The translations under genes and the position numbers were made by a program. Below, piece after piece: positions 4,395 to 12,714 of a stretch of 64,000 nt of DNA. A model generated the notes under the pieces. The model was not told the origin of the DNA, searched no databases, and worked only from the letters and a program-made list of their open reading frames with translations. Within the stretch, counting starts at the first letter, position 1. Each line of letters starts with the position of its first letter. The stretch covers positions 1 through 64,000 of the forward strand of contig CAJTFG010000003.1 of the NCBI GenBank assembly GCA_910575705.1, written 5' to 3'. The stretch is from Erysipelotrichales bacterium. Lineage in GTDB: Bacteria; Bacillota_I; Bacilli_A; Erysipelotrichales; Erysipelotrichaceae.

Positions 4395-4543
4395 ACGATA
4401 CCTCCTATGCCTATTTTATCCGATATAAACAAAGGAGTATAAGACGAATACCTATAGTCATTAAAAACAAATGCTTTTATTTTCTATAACCCATACTCAT
4501 CTTAAAGTTTTTCATAGAGTGTTATGAAAGGAGGTAGATTCCC

Positions 4544-4969
4544 TTGACAAAAATCATCGTATATGATGTATATACACAGGCTCTTCAAGTGTTTCAGAGG
4601 AATGAAAACGATCCAATGCCGTATTCTTATGGACGAACGATGCTCGTTCGTGAGTTCAGAGGTTCCTCACGTTCTTCTGTTTTATGGACAACCAATGCAG
4701 CGATGGAAGCTTGGAACGCTACCCGGCGTACGTATGGCAATCCCATTCCTTTCCGCTACGCTTTTAAACGCATTTGGGAAGGCGGTCACGGCCGTCAGTC
4801 ACAGCATTATGCCGGTTTAGCTTTTGATGTGGGACAAGCACTCACACAGGCACAGCGCAATCGCATATGGCAGGTCGCAAACAATCTAGGAGTATGGGTA
4901 TACGTGGAACCGCAAAGTATGACACCGACATGGGATAGTGTAAAATTAAGGGAAAATCATTCTACTTAA
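4544..4969 (+). pseudogene. 5' part of an interrupted M15-type peptidoglycan peptidase gene
   Basis: The TTG start follows AGGAGG by about 8 bases. The first 130 residues are the front of a zinc D,D-carboxypeptidase or endopeptidase-like M15 domain. The signature SQHYAGLAFD supplies zinc ligands H88 and D95, and E122 is a candidate general base. From codon 131 the frame runs into foreign sequence and ends after 11 unrelated residues. The missing rest, with the third zinc ligand (WVHFD) and a peptidoglycan-binding domain, is found in frame at 11514-11810. As it stands this piece lacks a complete zinc site and is probably inactive. No signal peptide is visible, as in phage-type lysins. Confidence 0.85.
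4928..4934 (+). other. left junction repeat (attL core)
   Basis: ACATGGG at codons 129-131 of the peptidase gene is repeated exactly at 11514-11520. Joining the two flanks through one copy restores the peptidase reading frame, which marks this as the crossover region of the integrated element. Confidence 0.75.
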
Positions 4970-4975
4970 AATGAA

Positions 4976-5012
4976 AAAAGTAGAGAATTTTGGCTCTCTA
5001 CTAGCAATTTTT
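4976..5012 (+). terminator. hairpin just inside the left end of the element
   Basis: GTAGAG and CTCTAC pair across a 10-base loop, and an AATTTTT tail follows shortly after. It would stop transcription coming from the truncated peptidase gene. Confidence 0.4.
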
Positions 5013-5029
5013 GTATGATTTAGGGTGTT

Positions 5030-5176
5030 TTATATAATTCTATTACCACTTACTTGGATATAGATTAACTCATTTTTCTTCTTAACTACAAAATCAATTT
5101 CCTTTCTGTATAGTTTATCTACATAAACTTCATATCCTCTATGACAAAGTTTAAGATAAACTATGCTTTCATACAC
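5030..5176 (-). pseudogene. remnant of an AAA ATPase C-terminus (DUF4143-like)
   Basis: On the minus strand an open stretch of about 47 codons ends at 5030. It reads as the last part of a DUF4143-type ATPase: an [17 protein letters not shown] segment followed by [10 protein letters not shown] and a final YIQVS. This matches the PD-(D/E)xK-like end of that family. A stop codon lies directly upstream and no start or ATPase core is present. It is a leftover of a decayed cargo gene. The family match is by eye. Confidence 0.55.
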
Positions 5177-5248
5177 TCACTAACAAACTTTTATATATCA
5201 TGAAATAATCGTTATCATTACATAAAACAATAATAAAGAATTAAATCT

Positions 5249-5935
5249 TTAAAAATCTACATAAATATTATATTTATAAAATTCAGATTTCATCTTTTCA
5301 TAATCTTCTTTTGATAGTTGCTTTAAATTAAGTTCGTCCATGCCCTCTACTACACCTGCAGCACATGTATATAAGGAGAAGCTAGTGATATGTAATCCCA
5401 TTTTCTCGACTGCTAAAGGGAGTTGCTCAAATCCTTTATCAACTGTTAGTATATTCTTATTCATTTGATAAGCTGTTTCATAAATTGCTCGCATCATTCT
5501 CCTGGTTCTTCTTTCCGATATCTCGTATGCATTTTTTCTAACATAACAGATATAAGCATAAAAGTAACGATCGTCAACAAAGTCAGGACTTTCTTGATGG
5601 CATTCTTTACATAACAAAAAATAATTTGATGGTATATTTTCTCCATCTAACATTCTAGATTTAATATGCGCTTTTTGTAAATAGCGAACTTCAGGAAAAT
5701 TCCAAATTCTCATACAGCTTTTAGTATTTATTAATCTATCATACTTTGGATTATCATATATTTTATGATTGAACATGCCACAAGCCCAACACTCAGGTTC
5801 GCCAGGGTCAGTGATCACTAGTTCAGCACCTTCTTCATAAAAATCAATTATTTTAAATTCTTTTGATATGTATTTGCCTATCCAATATTCTGCAATTTGT
5901 TTTCTTGAAGGTGAATGATTCTTATTATTCCCCAT
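5249..5935 (-). CDS. HNH-endonuclease-like protein, element cargo
   Basis: This 228-residue soluble protein has a CxxC pair (C49, C52) and then an HNH-like core: AHIKS with H90, N104, and a second CxxCH (C109, C112, H113). That is the usual arrangement of a zinc-stabilised HNH nuclease fold. The C-terminal half has no recognised domain. A strong AAGGAG site precedes the ATG. It stands alone on a recombinase element beside other defence-like genes, so an anti-phage or DNA-cleaving role is plausible, but this is inference. No methyltransferase partner is present. Confidence 0.65.
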   Translation of the reverse strand: MGNNKNHSPSRKQIAEYWIGKYISKEFKIIDFYEEGAELVITDPGEPECWACGMFNHKIYDNPKYDRLINTKSCMRIWNFPEVRYLQKAHIKSRMLDGENIPSNYFLLCKECHQESPDFVDDRYFYAYICYVRKNAYEISERRTRRMMRAIYETAYQMNKNILTVDKGFEQLPLAVEKMGLHITSFSLYTCAAGVVEGMDELNLKQLSKEDYEKMKSEFYKYNIYVDF

Positions 5936-6404
5936 AAAAATCTCCTTTCATTAATCATAAAACAGGAAGGACTTGCATCTTTCCAAACGCTATGTTCTAC
6001 ATTTTTTCGTTAAGAATCATATTTTTAGAATTTCTCCAGTTGCTTTTTTCTTTCGATAACATTAGCAATTCTTAGTTTATTTATCAAACAATTGCTTGAG
6101 TTCTTTTTAAATATGTCTTTTACTTCCTATTCAAATCCGTTCAGTGCGTCAGAAACAGAACAGATTTCTATTAGTTATTCAAAGCTTTTCTTGTACTACC
6201 TGTTTTATATTCAATAATTCCTAAGGAAATACAGTCCAGATGAATAAAACGAATGATTTTTGTAACCATATGTGTTTCTTTGTAACAGAAAAATTCTAAT
6301 ACTTCAATATTTTTTTATTTAAAGCTTTATTAGAAAATTAATCAACTAATAACCTAACACCTATTATTCCATTATTAGTTAAATAAAAGAAACCTATATA
6401 GATG
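5936..6404. other. gene-free stretch with coding remnants
   Basis: No intact gene is seen over these 469 bases. On the minus strand about 6183-6300 holds an open frame of some 38 codons ending in GIIEYKTGSTRKALNN, and about 6030-6110 a further piece ending NVIERKKQLEKF. Both look like tails of decayed genes, but I cannot assign a family. Confidence 0.4.
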
Positions 6405-7790
6405 TTATTTAAATAAATCATCAATCGTTAACAGAATTGCACCATCTATTTCTGCTTGTCGTTTCACTGGTTCTGTATATCCTGATTTACTTACAAAATA
6501 TAAATGTTTCTCTTTGATATTAGGAAATGCTTTCGTTGCATTTACAAGATCTGTATATTCTTCAAGAGGCATAGGACTTGATGTGAATTTACACTCCATA
6601 AAAATGGCCTTTTTACCACTTCGATCGATAGCCAAAACATCAACATCATCTTGTGCTTTGATACTTGGATTGTTACCCCACCATTTTCCTATAGAAAAAG
6701 GAATAAAAGGAAGTTTTCTTTTCTTTGCTTGATGAATTAAATATTCTTTACATACACCTTCAAATACATCTCCCATAAGATTTGAAATATCATTCATAAT
6801 TTCTTCAGCAGCATCTTTTGCTCCTAACATTGCATAATATGCATTATTCGTAAATTCATATCGAAACCAAAATCTTAAGAAATTATCTTTTATTACATAA
6901 ATTGATTTTTTAGATCTGCTATTTTCACCACTTGGAACTCTTTTCTCAATCAAACGTAATGTTTGAAGTGTTGTTAAATATTTAGAAACTTTTGTTTGAT
7001 CCTCATGTATATAATCTGCAATTTCGATAATTCTGTTTCTTCCATTCGCAATCGCAGAAAGTATGGAATTATAGGTATTTGTTTCTCGTAATTCTGCCTT
7101 CAATAAATTTTCAGGTTCTTCATATAAATAAGAACCATTTCGAATAATTTTAGATGCTATATTTTCTTCAACAGATTTATTAGCATCAAAAGCTTCTAAA
7201 TATCTTGGAACACCACCTAAAATCCCATAAGCAATTAACTTATCTTCGTTACTGTAGTTAGGGAAGAAATTACTACTTTCTAAATAATCAAATGAAGTTA
7301 TTTCTAATGTTGCTGTTTGACGATCATGTAATGGACTTTTTCTTCCCATGATTTCATTTTCCATGACACTAATTGAAGAACCACAAAGAACTAAAAAGAT
7401 ATTTTTATTCTTCCAACTATGATCAATAGCATGTTGCAGAAGTGATTTCACAGAAGGATTTTCTTCAATGATATAGGGAAATTCATCAATAATAAATGCA
7501 GTTCTATCTTGTGTTTTATTGCCAATATAGGAAAAAGCATCTTCCCAACTTTTAAATGAAGAAATGAACTGTTGCTCAAAATGAAGTTGTATTGTTTTTG
7601 AAAAATCTTCTAAATTTAATGCATCATTTTTTTCACGTGCAGGAAAAAAGATAGCGTTTGTATGTTTTGAAAATTCTTGAAGTAATGTTGTTTTTCCTAC
7701 TCTTCTTCGTCCATACATAACTAAAAATTCAAATTTTTTACTTTCATATAATTCATTTAAATAGTTTAATTCTTCTATTCTTCCTAGCAT
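6405..7790 (-). CDS. P-loop ATPase with DUF234 nuclease-like C-terminus
   Basis: The 461-residue protein begins with an archaeal-type ATPase domain: Walker A GRRRVGKTTL (residues 27-36), Walker B FIIDEFPY, and a sensor-like LCGSS. A winged-helix region follows, then a DUF234-type end in which DVDVLAID and IFMECKF give the D...ExK pattern of a PD-(D/E)xK nuclease fold. Such proteins are widespread in Bacillota, archaea and mobile elements, and their role is not settled. A clean AGGAGG precedes the start. On this element it may be a defence or addiction-type gene. A second, decayed ATPase of a related kind lies at the left end of the element. Confidence 0.8.
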   Translation of the reverse strand: MLGRIEELNYLNELYESKKFEFLVMYGRRRVGKTTLLQEFSKHTNAIFFPAREKNDALNLEDFSKTIQLHFEQQFISSFKSWEDAFSYIGNKTQDRTAFIIDEFPYIIEENPSVKSLLQHAIDHSWKNKNIFLVLCGSSISVMENEIMGRKSPLHDRQTATLEITSFDYLESSNFFPNYSNEDKLIAYGILGGVPRYLEAFDANKSVEENIASKIIRNGSYLYEEPENLLKAELRETNTYNSILSAIANGRNRIIEIADYIHEDQTKVSKYLTTLQTLRLIEKRVPSGENSRSKKSIYVIKDNFLRFWFRYEFTNNAYYAMLGAKDAAEEIMNDISNLMGDVFEGVCKEYLIHQAKKRKLPFIPFSIGKWWGNNPSIKAQDDVDVLAIDRSGKKAIFMECKFTSSPMPLEEYTDLVNATKAFPNIKEKHLYFVSKSGYTEPVKRQAEIDGAILLTIDDLFK

Positions 7791-7910
7791 AGTATTCCTC
7801 CTATTTTATTTATATACTCATAAGTATTATACTCTAAAGTATAAAAAATATCAAACCATGATTTTTAATACCACTACTTGACATTGTCTACAACTTAAAT
7901 GATGAGAAAT

Positions 7911-9755
7911 TTAGATATTTTGATAAATTGCTTTCTTATTTTTATGAGGTCTTTTTATCACACCTTCCGTTTCTAATTGTCTGATTTGTTTCATAAAGAT
8001 TCCTTTATAGGAATACGTATATCCTTGATTGATTAAGGCTTGATGAACACTTTTTAAAGAAAACTTTTGATACATAGCTTGCTTTTCAATTTCTTCTATA
8101 ATCGCTTTACGGTATATTTCTTGTTCTTCATCAACAAGTATAACATTCGCATCAATATCATCTGAAAAACATCCCTTGAAGTGAAATACGATTTGATGAT
8201 CGTGTACAACAATTTTGCGAAATAATATTTCTAGTTCCTGCTTTGTATAATCTTGCTTGGTAATCATTTCATCTATGATATCAAGAGCAGATGTAAAGCA
8301 TTCTTCATGAAAAGAGTAACTCTCTAATTCCTGTTTCAACAACTCGATATTCTCCTCATGCTCTTTCATCATCTTCACTTTTTCATCAATCAAGGATTGA
8401 TAAGATTCTTGAATGATCTCATAGTTTTCAAGCAGTGACATACTCTCTCGCATCTTATTTTCAATCAACTGTTTGATTTCTAACTTTAACTGTGTAATCT
8501 TTGTTTTATATTGAGTGATTTTTTTTAAAATTCCTTTTATTTCAACCTCTTTGGAATCTGCATGAATCTGTTGTTCCTCTAAAAAATTCTTATATACATC
8601 TCTACACCGTTTTAAAAATATCGTTACAGCTTTTTTTAGTTGTTGGTCTGTTACTGACTTTGAACTACAGACTGTTTTACCTTGTTTTTGATAGGTTGAA
8701 CAGTAATAATGGGTATTTCCTTCTCGTATATCTTTTGTAGTCTTAGAAGGCTTTAAAAGACTATTACAGTCAGCACAATATAATAATCCATGGAATATAT
8801 TTTCATAGATTTTTCTTTTTCTCTTAGATCGTACTTTCTTACTTTCCAACTTTTCTTGACAGATACGAAATAAGTTTTCATCAATAATGGCTTCATGATG
8901 ATGTTCAAATACTTTCCATTTCTCTCTAGGAAGCTTTTGATATTTTCCTCTAATCTTAACGCATTCTCCTTTATGAAGAATTAATGTTCCTAGATATGTT
9001 TCATTCTTTAAAATTCTGCGAATACAGGAATCATTCCAACAATCCGTATATTTATTTTTATCATCAATTCCGTTCTTTAATCGATATTCATGTAAGGAAC
9101 GAGAAGGAGTAAGAATGTTTTCTCTTGTTAGAGTACGAGCAATTTGTAAGATACCATACCCATCCACATACATTTGAAAGATACGCTTCACAACACTAGC
9201 ATTGTTTGGATCAATGACGAGTTCTGCACCTTTCTTTTGTACTTTATGATATCCAAACGGTGGGGTTGTCATCCATTCTCCATCTTCTTGTTTCATGTGA
9301 ATAACATTCTTTACTTTCTTGCTTGCCTCTTTCACATACAATTCGTTATGCCAAGTTTTGATTCCAATCGTTGAATCATTATCTTGAAAATTGGAATATC
9401 CATCATCTAACGCAATGACTTCACATCCATGATCCCTTGCATCTTCCATAAAGAGTAATGCACGAGCATTGTGTCTTCCTAAACGAGACATATCTTTTAT
9501 TAGTAATCGTTTCACTTTTCCAGAAGCAATATCTTTATTTAAACGATCAAAGTTAGGTCGTTCAAATGAATATCCACTTTCTCCATCATCAATATAGCGT
9601 TCTGTAATCGTATAATGATTTTCTTTCGCAAAACGAGTCAGCATCTTATCTTGATTTTCAATGGATACGGAAAGACCTTTATTTCGATCATCTCTTGATA
9701 ATCTTAAATAAAGAACAATATTGCGATCTTGAGTCTCTATCGTAAAATCGATCAT
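7911..9755 (-). CDS. large serine recombinase (integrase of the element)
   Basis: This 614-residue protein has the full architecture of a large serine integrase. A resolvase catalytic domain carries the nucleophile S20 in YLRLSRDD, with later RLGR-type catalytic arginines. A recombinase domain covers about residues 170-300. A zinc ribbon of paired cysteines (CADC, then CSTY and CSS) lies near 325-375, followed by a long coiled coil near 400-500 that in this family controls integration against excision. The family recombines short non-identical att sites without host factors. It is the obvious agent for the insertion flanked by ACATGGG. No separate directionality factor is recognised, although the 76-residue protein upstream is a candidate. 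Confidence 0.93.
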   Translation of the reverse strand: MIDFTIETQDRNIVLYLRLSRDDRNKGLSVSIENQDKMLTRFAKENHYTITERYIDDGESGYSFERPNFDRLNKDIASGKVKRLLIKDMSRLGRHNARALLFMEDARDHGCEVIALDDGYSNFQDNDSTIGIKTWHNELYVKEASKKVKNVIHMKQEDGEWMTTPPFGYHKVQKKGAELVIDPNNASVVKRIFQMYVDGYGILQIARTLTRENILTPSRSLHEYRLKNGIDDKNKYTDCWNDSCIRRILKNETYLGTLILHKGECVKIRGKYQKLPREKWKVFEHHHEAIIDENLFRICQEKLESKKVRSKRKRKIYENIFHGLLYCADCNSLLKPSKTTKDIREGNTHYYCSTYQKQGKTVCSSKSVTDQQLKKAVTIFLKRCRDVYKNFLEEQQIHADSKEVEIKGILKKITQYKTKITQLKLEIKQLIENKMRESMSLLENYEIIQESYQSLIDEKVKMMKEHEENIELLKQELESYSFHEECFTSALDIIDEMITKQDYTKQELEILFRKIVVHDHQIVFHFKGCFSDDIDANVILVDEEQEIYRKAIIEEIEKQAMYQKFSLKSVHQALINQGYTYSYKGIFMKQIRQLETEGVIKRPHKNKKAIYQNI

Positions 9756-9818
9756 AATAATGATACATACCTTTCTGATGCCACTATTATGTCGTGCTTT
9801 TTTTGATTTGACAGTGCC

Positions 9819-10049
9819 CTAATGCCCATATTTTTTATTCACCCTACAAGCAATCAGTTCTTTTAATAGCACTTTTATATTGATTGTTCCATCAATAAAC
9901 TTCACCTCATATGTCTTCCTGTTATTTACATTTGAAGTATTTGATTTTGGATTCTTTGATTGCATGGATCCATCTCCTATACTATCATATGAATCCATTT
10001 GACTTTGTTTTCTCTTTCTAAGAGAATCCGTTACATTCAGAGTTTTCAT
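9819..10049 (-). CDS. small hypothetical protein upstream of the recombinase
   Basis: This 76-residue polar protein has a serine- and asparagine-rich first half and a KTYEVKFIDGTINIKVLLKEL segment that could form a strand-helix unit. I do not recognise a family. It lies 63 bases upstream of the recombinase in the same orientation, so it may be a recombination directionality factor or regulator. Its start lacks a close ribosome binding site. GGAGG lies about 20 bases away, before a three-codon frame (ATG ATT ATG TAA) that ends next to this start, so coupled translation is possible. Confidence 0.5.
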   Translation of the reverse strand: MKTLNVTDSLRKRKQSQMDSYDSIGDGSMQSKNPKSNTSNVNNRKTYEVKFIDGTINIKVLLKELIACRVNKKYGH

Positions 10050-10123
10050 TTGATTACATAATCATAAAATTCCTCCATTCTTCTTTGATATTTTATCTCA
10101 AATTCCAATCTTTTTACTCCATC

Positions 10124-10156
10124 AAAAAAAGCTGAACTGATTGGAACAGCTTTTCA
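10124..10156 (-). terminator. terminator behind the FRG-domain gene
   Basis: AAAAGCTG and CAGCTTTT arms (10127-10134 and 10147-10154) form a hairpin that is followed by seven T on the minus strand, just downstream of the FRG gene. Confidence 0.6.
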
Positions 10157-10215
10157 TATTCTTTATTAATTTATTGAGGTTATGATTAATTTCTCTAACT
10201 TTTTCTCCAAATTTA

Positions 10216-11100
10216 TTATTTATTAATTTTAATTTGGTTCAAAGCTCCTTTTTTCTTTAAATATTTTCTTTCCTTATCCTCTCCAGACTTTTCTTTAACA
10301 ACCTTATTAACAGCATTAATACCATTCATAAAATTATCAGTTATCAAATCAAGTGCTTTATCTGTTTTACTTAAAATATTTAATTCTTTAATAAATTTGC
10401 ATGTTTCTTCTTCTAAAGAGGGATATATACTACTTTTATTAATTCCTAATAAATCTAATTCTTTTTTTAGTATATTAATAGAATCTTTGTCAATACTTAG
10501 CTCTTCGACTTCAAAAGCTTCAGATTTAGTAATATCGAAATCCTCGAAGAATAGAATAAAATCTCCTTTTTGATTTTTTATTCTATCAGAAATACTACTC
10601 CCATTTACCATGACTATTTTACTATTAATTATGTTTTTTTCATAAAAAGAATTCAATTCTTTATTCACAAAATAACTCGCTTTGCAATTCTTAGCTATTA
10701 TTAAATACACAACTGGTTCATCAGTTTCTTTAAAATTTTCTAATGCAAAGTATAAGGATACTAAAGGATTTGAAGTGACATCTAAAACCCTTGTTGGAAA
10801 ACCATAGTGTTGTAAAATATTGATTATACTGATTAAATCTTCATAAATAATATTTACAAAGTAATCATGATTTTTTTCAACAAACTTATAAATTTGGTTT
10901 ATTTCTTCATCTATATTGTTATAAAAAGGAAGGTCTGAATGCTTTTCTTTTTCTCTATAAAAGGAAGGAATTAATTTCCAGTTTTTATTGAATCCATTTC
11001 TTTGACCTCTATAAAAAATCTGTTCAGAAGGAAAATTAATCTTTCGTTCTTCGATTATTTCAATAAAGTTGGAAATATTTTTAATCTTATTGTTTATCAT
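10216..11100 (-). CDS. FRG-domain protein, element cargo
   Basis: The 294-residue protein contains an FRG domain over roughly residues 25-150. It shows an N-terminal FYRGQ motif, a PSFYR segment and the hallmark LQHYGFPTRVLDVTSNP. The domain is named for its F-R-G residues and is common in proteins of mobile elements and defence islands. Its biochemical activity is not established to my knowledge. The lysine-rich C-terminal 130 residues are not recognised. The start overlaps the end of the preceding small gene by 14 bases and has no ribosome site of its own, so the two are translationally coupled, as in toxin-antitoxin-like pairs. Confidence 0.8.
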   Translation of the reverse strand: MINNKIKNISNFIEIIEERKINFPSEQIFYRGQRNGFNKNWKLIPSFYREKEKHSDLPFYNNIDEEINQIYKFVEKNHDYFVNIIYEDLISIINILQHYGFPTRVLDVTSNPLVSLYFALENFKETDEPVVYLIIAKNCKASYFVNKELNSFYEKNIINSKIVMVNGSSISDRIKNQKGDFILFFEDFDITKSEAFEVEELSIDKDSINILKKELDLLGINKSSIYPSLEEETCKFIKELNILSKTDKALDLITDNFMNGINAVNKVVKEKSGEDKERKYLKKKGALNQIKINK

Positions 11101-11356
11101 TTTGAATACTTGTCATTAATAACTGTTTGAAATCTTCGTTAGTCATCCCTAATTCACGCATCAAATCAATTGCCTCTAATGGAGAAAGGTTAGATTCATT
11201 ACTTAATTGTTGAACATATTCAATTAAATCAACAAAACCATTCCACAATTCGATATATTGATCGTCAATCTTTATTTTTTCATACTTATTATAAATTCCT
11301 ACAATTTTTTCTTCAAAATTTTCTTCTTTTTTTCTAGTGTTTATTTTATCTAACAT
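11087..11356 (-). CDS. small partner protein of the FRG gene
   Basis: This 89-residue, charged, mostly helical protein of unknown family is preceded by a strong AGGAGG. It is the first gene of a two-gene unit with the FRG-domain gene, which it overlaps by 14 bases. Size, order and coupling fit an antitoxin or chaperone for the FRG protein, but there is no direct sequence evidence for that function. Confidence 0.65.
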   Translation of the reverse strand: MLDKINTRKKEENFEEKIVGIYNKYEKIKIDDQYIELWNGFVDLIEYVQQLSNESNLSPLEAIDLMRELGMTNEDFKQLLMTSIQNDKQ

Positions 11357-11513
11357 GTATAAAGCCTCCTAATTAGTCAGAAATAGTATATATCTTTAGG
11401 CCTTTAAAAATCAATATCATTTAATTTTTTAATAAAAAATCTTTTAGTTTCTATCTGTTTGATATATTTTTATAATAATTTATCTAGAGGCCCATTTCCT
11501 TAACTCCACTCCA

Positions 11514-11520
11514 ACATGGG
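11514..11520 (+). other. right junction repeat (attR core)
   Basis: This is the second copy of ACATGGG. To its right the peptidase frame resumes as TGG-GTC-CAC-TTC-GAC (WVHFD). To its left lies element sequence. Confidence 0.75.
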
Positions 11521-11810
11521 TCCACTTCGACAAACGCTATGGCAGACCAGCCTGCAGCGCCGGATTCCCTACACTGCGCAACGGCAGCCGCGGTGTTTAT
11601 GTACTTGTCCTTCAAGATGCATTAAATGCCCTCGGTTATTCCACAAGAACATTGGACGGTGCCTTCGGTCAAAATACACGCTCCGCACTGATCGCTTATC
11701 AGCGCAACAACGGATTAAGCGCAGATGGCATATGCGGATGTGCCACTTGGACGAGAATTGTCAGTGAGGTAGTCGGAATCGGTAGAACACCGACGGTAAT
11801 CGATCCTTAA
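11514..11810 (+). pseudogene. 3' part of the interrupted peptidase gene with peptidoglycan-binding domain
   Basis: Read in the frame that continues codon 129 of the left fragment, this piece encodes TWVHFDKRYG followed by a peptidoglycan-binding type 1 domain. That domain has LQDALNALGY, DGAFGQNTRSAL and YQRNNGLSADG, and the frame ends at TAA 11808-11810. H132 of the rejoined protein would be the third zinc ligand. The rejoined protein is 226 residues: M15 domain about 1-145, binding domain about 148-212. The fragment has no start codon or ribosome site of its own in this frame, so it is silent while the element is in place. Confidence 0.85.
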
Positions 11811-11851
11811 AAAAACCTCCTGCCTGCTTTTCCAGCAGACAGGAAGTTTTT
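11811..11851 (+). terminator. terminator of the interrupted peptidase gene
   Basis: An 18-bp stem (11811-11828 with 11834-11851, two wobble pairs) and a final T5 directly follow the stop codon. Confidence 0.8.
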
Positions 11852-11866
11852 ACATATCATACACCA

Positions 11867-11906
11867 TTGACAAAAGCAATCAATTAAAGTTATACTAATA
11901 TAACTT
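11867..11906 (+). promoter_or_regulatory. promoter with overlapping inverted repeat, ZIP transporter gene
   Basis: The -35 box TTGACA (11867-11872), an 18-base spacer and the -10 box TATACT (11891-11896) are clear. The -10 box is overlapped by a perfect inverted repeat AAGTTATA-CTAA-TATAACTT (11887-11906). This is a likely operator for a repressor, plausibly metal-responsive given the gene behind it. Confidence 0.7.
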
Positions 11907-11922
11907 ATTAGGAGATGATACT

Positions 11923-12714
11923 ATGAAAGTACTATTATGGGCGGCATTAGGTACCGGTTTTACCTTTTTGATGACATCCTGCGGCGCTGCACTCGTATAT
12001 ATATTTAAAGGAAAAACAAGCGAAAACATTCAACGCATTTTCTTAGGTTTCGCCGCGGGCATCATGATCGCTGCATCGATCTGGTCTTTGCTGATACCCG
12101 CCATCACACAAGCAGAAGACATGGGAATGATCCCCTGGATCCCGGCAGCAGGAGGATTTACTCTTGGCGGAATATGTTTGCTGGCTCTGGATAATCTACT
12201 TCCCCATCTGCATATAGGCAGTCAGCAAGCCGAAGGCATGACCAGCTGCTGGAAACGTACTACACTGCTCATTTCTTCGGTTACGCTTCATAATATTCCG
12301 GAAGGAATGGCCGTTGGACTGATGTTTGCTATGGCGGCCCAGCAATCCAGCGATCCTGCCTTCTCCACTGCTGCCTTTGCTCTCGCCTTAGGCATCGGCA
12401 TACAAAACTTTCCAGAAGGCGCTGCTATATCATTGCCGCTTCATCAAGAGGGCATGAGCGTTCATAAATCCTTCTTATGCGGAAGCCTGTCCGGTATCGT
12501 AGAACCGATATTCGGCATTTTATGCGTGTTAGCCGCTGGGAGCATTCAGCCTTTCATGCCATGGCTTTTATCTTTTGCCGCAGGCGCTATGATCTATGTC
12601 GTCGTAGAAGAACTTATACCGGAAGCTCATCTCGGTGAGCACTCTCATATCGGAACCGCAGGCATCATGGCTGGCTTTCTCATCATGATGATCTTAGATA
12701 TCGCCTTGGGATAA
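11923..12714 (+). CDS. ZIP-family metal transporter
   Basis: This 263-residue membrane protein of about eight helices has the two metal-site motifs of ZIP carriers: HNIPEG (residues 123-128) in TM4 and QNFPEG (161-166) in TM5. Bacterial relatives (ZupT, GufA-like) import zinc and other divalent metals. A histidine-poor loop separates the first and second halves. The start is preceded by TAGGAG. It is a single gene with its own promoter and putative operator. It converges with the next minus-strand gene and their 3' ends overlap by 21 bases. Confidence 0.9.
   Translation: MKVLLWAALGTGFTFLMTSCGAALVYIFKGKTSENIQRIFLGFAAGIMIAASIWSLLIPAITQAEDMGMIPWIPAAGGFTLGGICLLALDNLLPHLHIGSQQAEGMTSCWKRTTLLISSVTLHNIPEGMAVGLMFAMAAQQSSDPAFSTAAFALALGIGIQNFPEGAAISLPLHQEGMSVHKSFLCGSLSGIVEPIFGILCVLAAGSIQPFMPWLLSFAAGAMIYVVVEELIPEAHLGEHSHIGTAGIMAGFLIMMILDIALG

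Follow-up and report, generated by a model that had tools for sequence, protein, structure and literature searches.

A compact serine-recombinase island divides a probable sporulation-type peptidoglycan hydrolase gene in an Erysipelotrichaceae genome

The stretch of DNA analyzed here (the window) comprises the first 64,000 nucleotides of contig CAJTFG010000003.1 of an Erysipelotrichales bacterium. Close to its left end, a gene for a putative peptidoglycan hydrolase is split in two by an inserted island that encodes its own large serine recombinase (LSR). We hold with high confidence that the island arose by LSR integration into a sporulation-type gene. It probably works like, and is, a sporulation-gene intervening element of the skin/SP-beta/gin kind. 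The complete proposal, in which LSR integration is followed by excision in the mother cell during sporulation and the restored hydrolase aids lysis, we consider an even call; within it, LSR integration is well supported, and sporulation-timed excision is plausible by analogy with known elements.

A scripted join of the two gene segments flanking the island (Table 1) gives one frame of 226 codons followed by a stop, with zero frameshift, and the heptamer ACATGGG stands at both gene-island junctions. A further copy of the heptamer, the third within the first 13 kb of the window, lies at position 12119. A first-pass annotation of the DNA had described two fragments that meet in the same frame through this repeat, as the join bears out; the 226-residue product was recovered, but the end given for it, 11810, is one base before the end of the stop codon (11811). 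The left open reading frame (ORF) starts with TTG behind a GGAGG site and runs into the island, yielding 141 amino acids. Since the cut lies inside codon 131, the left product is without H132, the presumed third zinc ligand, and without the wall-binding domain. No ATG, GTG, or TTG start precedes the right half back to an in-frame TGA at 11460. The G+C content is 0.44 at 4501–5000, 0.24 to 0.35 within the island, and 0.46 at 11501–12000. Both junctions are deep within a 278-kb contig and adjoin feoAB.

Uninterrupted copies of the gene are common in relatives. In a census of 272 genomes of the family (that of the window included), with the gene called at E 1e-15, 34 genomes were carriers, and 32 of them read through the insertion site in one frame. 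The exceptions are the window's genome and G242, a genome of another genus that is considered below. Thirty of the 32 read-through genes are near full length; the other two were read over residues 1 to 204 (G214) and 53 to 224 (G262), and the pieces of G262, which lie at contig starts, were excluded from the insertion count. The DNA of the site, compared in 31 genes, reads AC-N-TGGG in all 31 and exactly ACATGGG in 15. The left part of the G027 gene is 88% identical to that of the window. As in the window, feoA and feoB are found directly upstream, diverging, in G027 and G141; in G139 and G142 they are ~1.1 kb from the gene. The window's right-hand neighbor, a ZIP transporter gene, was not beside the whole gene in the loci examined. 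Wider draws returned carriers in the source organism's family only: 9 of 395 genomes at E 1e-30 for the class and 34 of 315 at E 1e-25 for the order.

The proposal of the first-pass annotation that an LSR element uses a lytic-enzyme gene as its target site is thus upheld by LSR domains that pass their cut-offs, by the in-frame join, and by the whole site in relatives; halves with no intact form anywhere, which would have spoken against it, are contradicted by the 32 whole copies. Because the halves join in frame, exact excision would restore the gene, as also proposed. In its degree of conservation the right half matches uninterrupted copies: its nonsynonymous divergence (dN) from eight whole genes is 0.116 to 0.187, and five pairs of whole genes span 0.116 to 0.187 as well. 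The right half, predicted to be untranslated while the island is present, may either have been split off recently or still be under selection.

The island carries six notable ORFs, each of them encoded on the minus strand. One 614-residue protein has Resolvase, Recombinase, and zinc-ribbon domains, all three above cut-off, and is placed among integrases by PHROGs. LSR relatives at E 1e-60 occur in 3 of the 271 other family genomes (31 to 34% identity), and a plasmid-borne TndX matches the protein at 36% over residues 13 to 377 (E 1e-55). Tn5397-like elements carry conjugation genes; the island thus resembles the elements of TndX-type recombinases in its LSR and differs from them in that no conjugation genes were recognized in it. 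PADLOC assigns the ATPase to PDC-S27 (E 2e-57) and the FRG-domain protein to PDC-S15 (E 3e-40), both candidate defense groups. With PHROGs, the ATPase has a weak clamp-loader match (E 3e-4), the HNH protein a weak match, and the FRG protein matches to families of unknown function. Among the six ORFs, no phage structural or mobilization gene was recognized by Pfam, NCBIfam, or PHROGs, and no relaxase or conjugation gene by Pfam or NCBIfam. Viral contig scans contained no relatives of the LSR or the FRG protein, and a near-identity search of the island against plasmids gave zero matches. A 3,554-bp contig (L013, CAOKLK010000123.1) from a metagenome-assembled genome (MAG) labeled uncultured Tenericutes is 99.97% identical to window positions 5339–8892 in the island, and the feoB region of that MAG is just 66 to 67% alike to the window's; this may reflect either recent transfer or a binning error.

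A second LSR is located at the same gene in G242, which is SpoIVA-positive. There, the hydrolase gene resembles its relatives as far as GGTTATGT (codon 121, or codons 123 to 124 in the extension made by aligners) and then gives way to foreign sequence. A 552-residue LSR ORF ends ~25 bp past the break, followed by a PemK/MazF-type gene. The two LSRs share 28% identity, and the break points of the window and G242 are ~28 bp apart within the gene. Relatives of the G242 LSR occur in seven other genomes (34 to 42% identity). The right half of the gene was not found in the G242 draft, where just general peptidoglycan-binding proteins matched (best 50%), so the evidence is one-sided. A different boundary in relatives had been named as a result that would speak against the annotated element; G242 has such a boundary, but with an unrelated LSR it does not refute the proposal. 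G140 was considered as a third LSR insertion and set aside: its contig C9 (L052:1625-1948) holds the right part only, has one nucleotide deleted at the codons for W-V-H and gene-like TTATGTGGAAC upstream, and no recombinase is among the ORFs listed for L052:1-7000. We therefore treat it as a decayed copy. The left end of this second, right-half copy of G140 is near the place of the G242 break.

The circle junction that excision would create was reconstructed from the island ends. It is palindromic about the TG of ACATGGG at 14 of 22 arm positions, a score reached by 0.03 to 0.04% of positions in the island or window; the test took the best of 8 centers and 4 arm lengths, the 22-nt arm being picked among alternatives. 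Arms of 18 and 25 give 0.2 to 0.6%, and an arm of 12 gives a nonsignificant 6 to 11%. In the LSR model, the attP palindrome spans ~50 bp, and an outer motif stands 5 bp nearer the core in attB (PMC3783163). The outer motif TTTCCTTAA is close to the expected place of the zinc-ribbon motif of LSR attP sites; the uninterrupted G066 gene has it again, shifted 5 bp toward the core (12/16, shuffled P 0.026). This was the top result when 31 homologs and the host were compared at 9 shifts, and the host's own site was not among the best 12 comparisons. The TG is the likely crossover point.

The link to sporulation comes from gene distribution and from the promoter. SpoIVA, a spore-coat marker, is over its cut-off in 36 of the 272 family genomes: 31 of 34 carriers of the hydrolase gene versus 5 of 238 noncarriers (Fisher 3e-32), or 15 of 15 carrier genera versus 2 of 44 others (3e-12), with shared ancestry uncorrected in both tests. 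The three carriers without SpoIVA are incomplete genomes (66, 86, and 89%); five genomes have SpoIVA and no hydrolase gene. The gene thus appears nearly confined to spore-forming members of the family.

Upstream of the gene, the window carries both boxes of a sigma-K-type element, AC-N16-CATAGAGTG. A CATA is present 25 to 45 nt before the start in 27 of 32 upstream regions, that of the window included (mean of 3.5 and maximum of 8 in 200 shuffles), and AC precedes it by 16 to 17 nt in 12 of the 32 (shuffled mean 0.39, maximum 3). As a control, 125 other ORFs of at least 200 residues from the window and nine loci have CATA in 20 cases and CATA with AC in 2. The 25- to 45-nt range was chosen after inspecting the sequences, and for L043 and L044, two of the 27, the CATA that entered the count is 40 nt from the start, with a better match at 23 nt. 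The sigK P2 promoter of Clostridioides difficile has a −35 AC and a −10 CATATAAT, and the −10 elements of sigma-E and sigma-K are similar (PMC3789822); the element can therefore be assigned to the sigma-K/E type, not to one factor. The window's own genome encodes two sigma-K/E-like proteins, which score 285.6 and 250.3 bits against a sigma-K model cut-off of 298.65. Together, SpoIVA co-occurrence and the conserved promoter element make it plausible that the target is a sporulation gene of mother-cell type. They also lend plausibility to the reversible gene switch suggested in the first-pass annotation; what speaks against a dedicated switch is that neither a directionality factor nor a two-box sporulation promoter was recognized in the island.

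The peptidoglycan-binding domain of the target is firm: all 16 homologs tested match PG_binding_1. Two motifs, S-Q-H-Y-A-G..F-D and T-P-T-W-V-H, do not vary across 16 homologs; the H..D spacing is six, and the H..D and W-V-H pattern has the look expected of an M15-type zinc site. Peptidase_M15_3 is matched by 4 of 16 homologs at E 0.1, under the cut-off. A structure model from a three-row alignment had a predicted local distance difference test score (pLDDT) of 51, too poor to judge an M15 fold. M15 peptidase identity is thus weakly supported. The earlier description of an M15 peptidase with a complete zinc site and a binding domain holds for the domain; the zinc site is suggested by motifs, and the M15 models stay under cut-off.

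A phage endolysin origin of the target gene was set aside. Two gut “phage” records contain full-length homologs (66 and 60%), as does one IMG/VR contig (60%). In the two of these that were scanned, L085 and L087, the neighbors include phosphoglycerate kinase and triosephosphate isomerase, or alpha-amylase, with an integrase also in L085. Distant relatives do occur in phages, as in Faecalibacterium phage Pioen (25% over 93% of the query). In the ORF at L085:5551-6639, on an IMG/VR contig, a phage integrase domain is joined to the beginning of a tetrahydrofolate dehydrogenase/cyclohydrolase domain, perhaps through integration into folD. Some genomes contain a diverged paralog of the hydrolase gene with 24 to 35% identity (L010:1501-1887, L011:1501-1800); in G010 the paralog directly follows the main gene, and both paralogs that were read have S in place of the D of the H..D motif.

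Table 1. Features of the split gene, the island, and the G242 locus. Positions are those of the window unless a locus is named.
Feature	Position	Strand	Remark
Sigma-K-type promoter element of the hydrolase gene	4495..4521	+	AC 4495-4496, 16 nt, CATAGAGTG 4513-4521; conserved in homologs
Left half of hydrolase gene, codons 1-130 and one base of codon 131	4544..4934	+	ORF continues to 4969 in the island
ACATGGG shared core, left junction (attL)	4928..4934	+	
Inserted island, 6,586 bp	4935..11520	.	Low G+C
HNH-type protein, 228 aa	5249..5935	-	Just under Pfam cut-off
ATPase_2/DUF234 protein, 461 aa	6405..7790	-	PADLOC candidate group PDC-S27
LSR, 614 aa	7911..9755	-	Resolvase, Recombinase, zinc ribbon
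76-aa ORF directly upstream of the LSR	9819..10049	-	Directionality-factor candidate by size and place only; no family
FRG-domain protein, 294 aa	10216..11100	-	PADLOC candidate group PDC-S15
89-aa ORF	11087..11356	-	No family
ACATGGG shared core, right junction (attR)	11514..11520	+	
Right half of hydrolase gene, rest of codon 131 to stop	11521..11811	+	With peptidoglycan-binding domain, without start codon
G242 LSR and PemK/MazF-type gene	L051:10151-11809 and 12078-12482		At truncated hydrolase gene

We propose that the island's own LSR integrated this small, non-phage element at the conserved T-P-T-W-V-H codons of a chromosomal peptidoglycan hydrolase gene. The insertion would be tolerated because the gene is needed at most in late sporulation, and with the island in place the cell would make the 141-residue product. 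Recombination of attL with attR would restore the 226-codon gene and release a free circle, the crossover probably falling at the TG in the middle of ACATGGG. Excision would most likely occur in the mother cell during sporulation, as for skin, SP-beta/spsM, gin, and yin; the restored hydrolase would help to lyse the mother cell, and the spore chromosome would keep the island. The LSR specificity, the crossover point, the enzyme class, and the role in lysis are what we infer here. As a general rule, recombination of attL with attR by an LSR requires a directionality factor (PMC5025042, PMC3783163), so restoration of the gene would need one too.

Sporulation intervening elements are known from sigK, spsM, spoVFB, spoVR, gerE, and yabG. 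The gin element in gerE of Bacillus cereus ATCC10987 (PMC5595907) is likewise non-phage and encodes serine recombinases; it splits a mother-cell gene at a short core, and its excision rebuilds the frame, as that of the window island would. It differs in its 28.6-kb length, its three recombinases, a demonstrated factor (GirX), and demonstrated excision at the time of sporulation, whereas the window island has 6.6 kb, one recombinase, no recognized factor, and a wall-hydrolase target. The skin elements in sigK of C. difficile (PMC5025042) and Bacillus subtilis share with it an LSR and att sites inside a gene, which for skin is a mother-cell gene restored by excision, as proposed for the island; they are prophage-like and target a sigma factor, and the C. 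difficile factor CD1234 is under sigma-E and SpoIIID. SP-beta in spsM of B. subtilis (PMC4191935), also an LSR element, restores a sporulation gene by precise excision, as the island would; it is a full prophage with a known factor, SprB. The yin element in yabG of Clostridium botulinum (PMC10747680) is an LSR element in the gene of a sporulation-associated enzyme and has a putative 72-residue factor with a putative SigK promoter; unlike the window island, it is prophage-like, its excised form was detected by polymerase chain reaction, and its target is a protease. Among the matches listed from the open-licence literature, none described such an element with a wall hydrolase gene as its target. 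An unusual target, a small size, and a lack of recognized phage structural genes mark the island. If it is a sporulation-gene intervening element, it would, to our knowledge, possibly be the smallest.

Several observations weigh against the proposed mechanism. In known cases the recombinase or the directionality factor is under sporulation control (PMC5595907), and such control of the island is the weakest link of the proposal. No two-box sigma-E/K promoter was found upstream of the six island ORFs, where consensus scans gave chance numbers: a lone CATAATAGTG stands at −36 of the LSR with no −35 box to match, the HNH ORF is preceded by a CATA at −59 and an AC at 14 nt, and the 76-residue ORF has its nearest CATA 135 nt upstream. 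Pfam, NCBIfam, and PHROGs recognized no directionality factor in the island. For the target gene, 5 of the 32 upstream regions are without CATA at 25 to 45 nt (one has it at 23; four, G242 among them, have none within 60 nt), and the sigma-K cut-off was passed in none of five genomes searched, the carrier G066 reaching 66 bits at best. The attB site is not palindromic about the TG (8/22, 18% of positions). The best stated Peptidase_M15 scores are 13.5 to 14.6 bits against cut-offs of 23.2 to 25, and a Protein Data Bank search with the N-terminal profile returned nothing at E 10. Synonymous divergence (dS) in the right-half comparison exceeds 1 or is saturated, and a recent insertion may be all that its conservation reflects. 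The analysis covers a single genome of the species and no empty-site strain.

These points bear on a simpler explanation, which we rate as possible but clearly behind even chances: an ordinary LSR island has knocked out a dispensable gene, and its excision in the host is rare or never occurs. The in-frame join would then be an automatic result of site-specific recombination, and a recent insertion would account for the conserved right half. Neither a two-box sporulation promoter nor a directionality factor was recognized in the island, in keeping with a stationary element, although the latter weighs little because directionality factors are diverse. The gene is absent from five of the 36 SpoIVA-positive genomes, and sporulation may thus be able to proceed without it. 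What a stationary island leaves unexplained is that the target belongs to the few genes confined to spore formers, a pattern known from intervening elements, and that a second, unrelated LSR is in the same gene.

Excision under stress or at random for the island's own transfer, with gene restoration as a side effect, we consider distinctly improbable. Candidate defense genes with an LSR are typical mobile cargo, and the island piece in the MAG of a different organism could mean recent transfer; however, no relaxase or other transfer gene was recognized among the six ORFs by Pfam or NCBIfam, and the contig may have been binned into that MAG by mistake. That the two halves are unrelated or misjoined, through an assembly artifact or chance, has next to no probability even with a single assembly of the species, given the whole homologs in 32 of 34 carriers, the LSR in the insert, the exact in-frame join, and the position of both junctions deep in the contig beside feoAB.

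Mother-cell excision of an intervening element could be taken a step further, to a compact island with candidate anti-phage genes that uses a sporulation-only lysin gene as a safe harbor and excises in the doomed mother cell, thereby turning the lysin on, whereas the spore retains the island, the gene being hit recurrently by unrelated LSRs across the family. We put this forward as a tentative idea that is less likely to hold than to fail. The wall-hydrolase case and the second, unrelated recombinase in another genus suggest that mother-cell-only genes may be favored landing sites of serine recombinases generally. The island also suggests that sporulation intervening elements need be neither large nor of phage type and can carry candidate defense genes, and the analysis singles out an uncharacterized gene that behaves like a sporulation gene. 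If true, the safe-harbor idea would add a new lineage and a new class of target genes to the known range of developmental DNA rearrangement.

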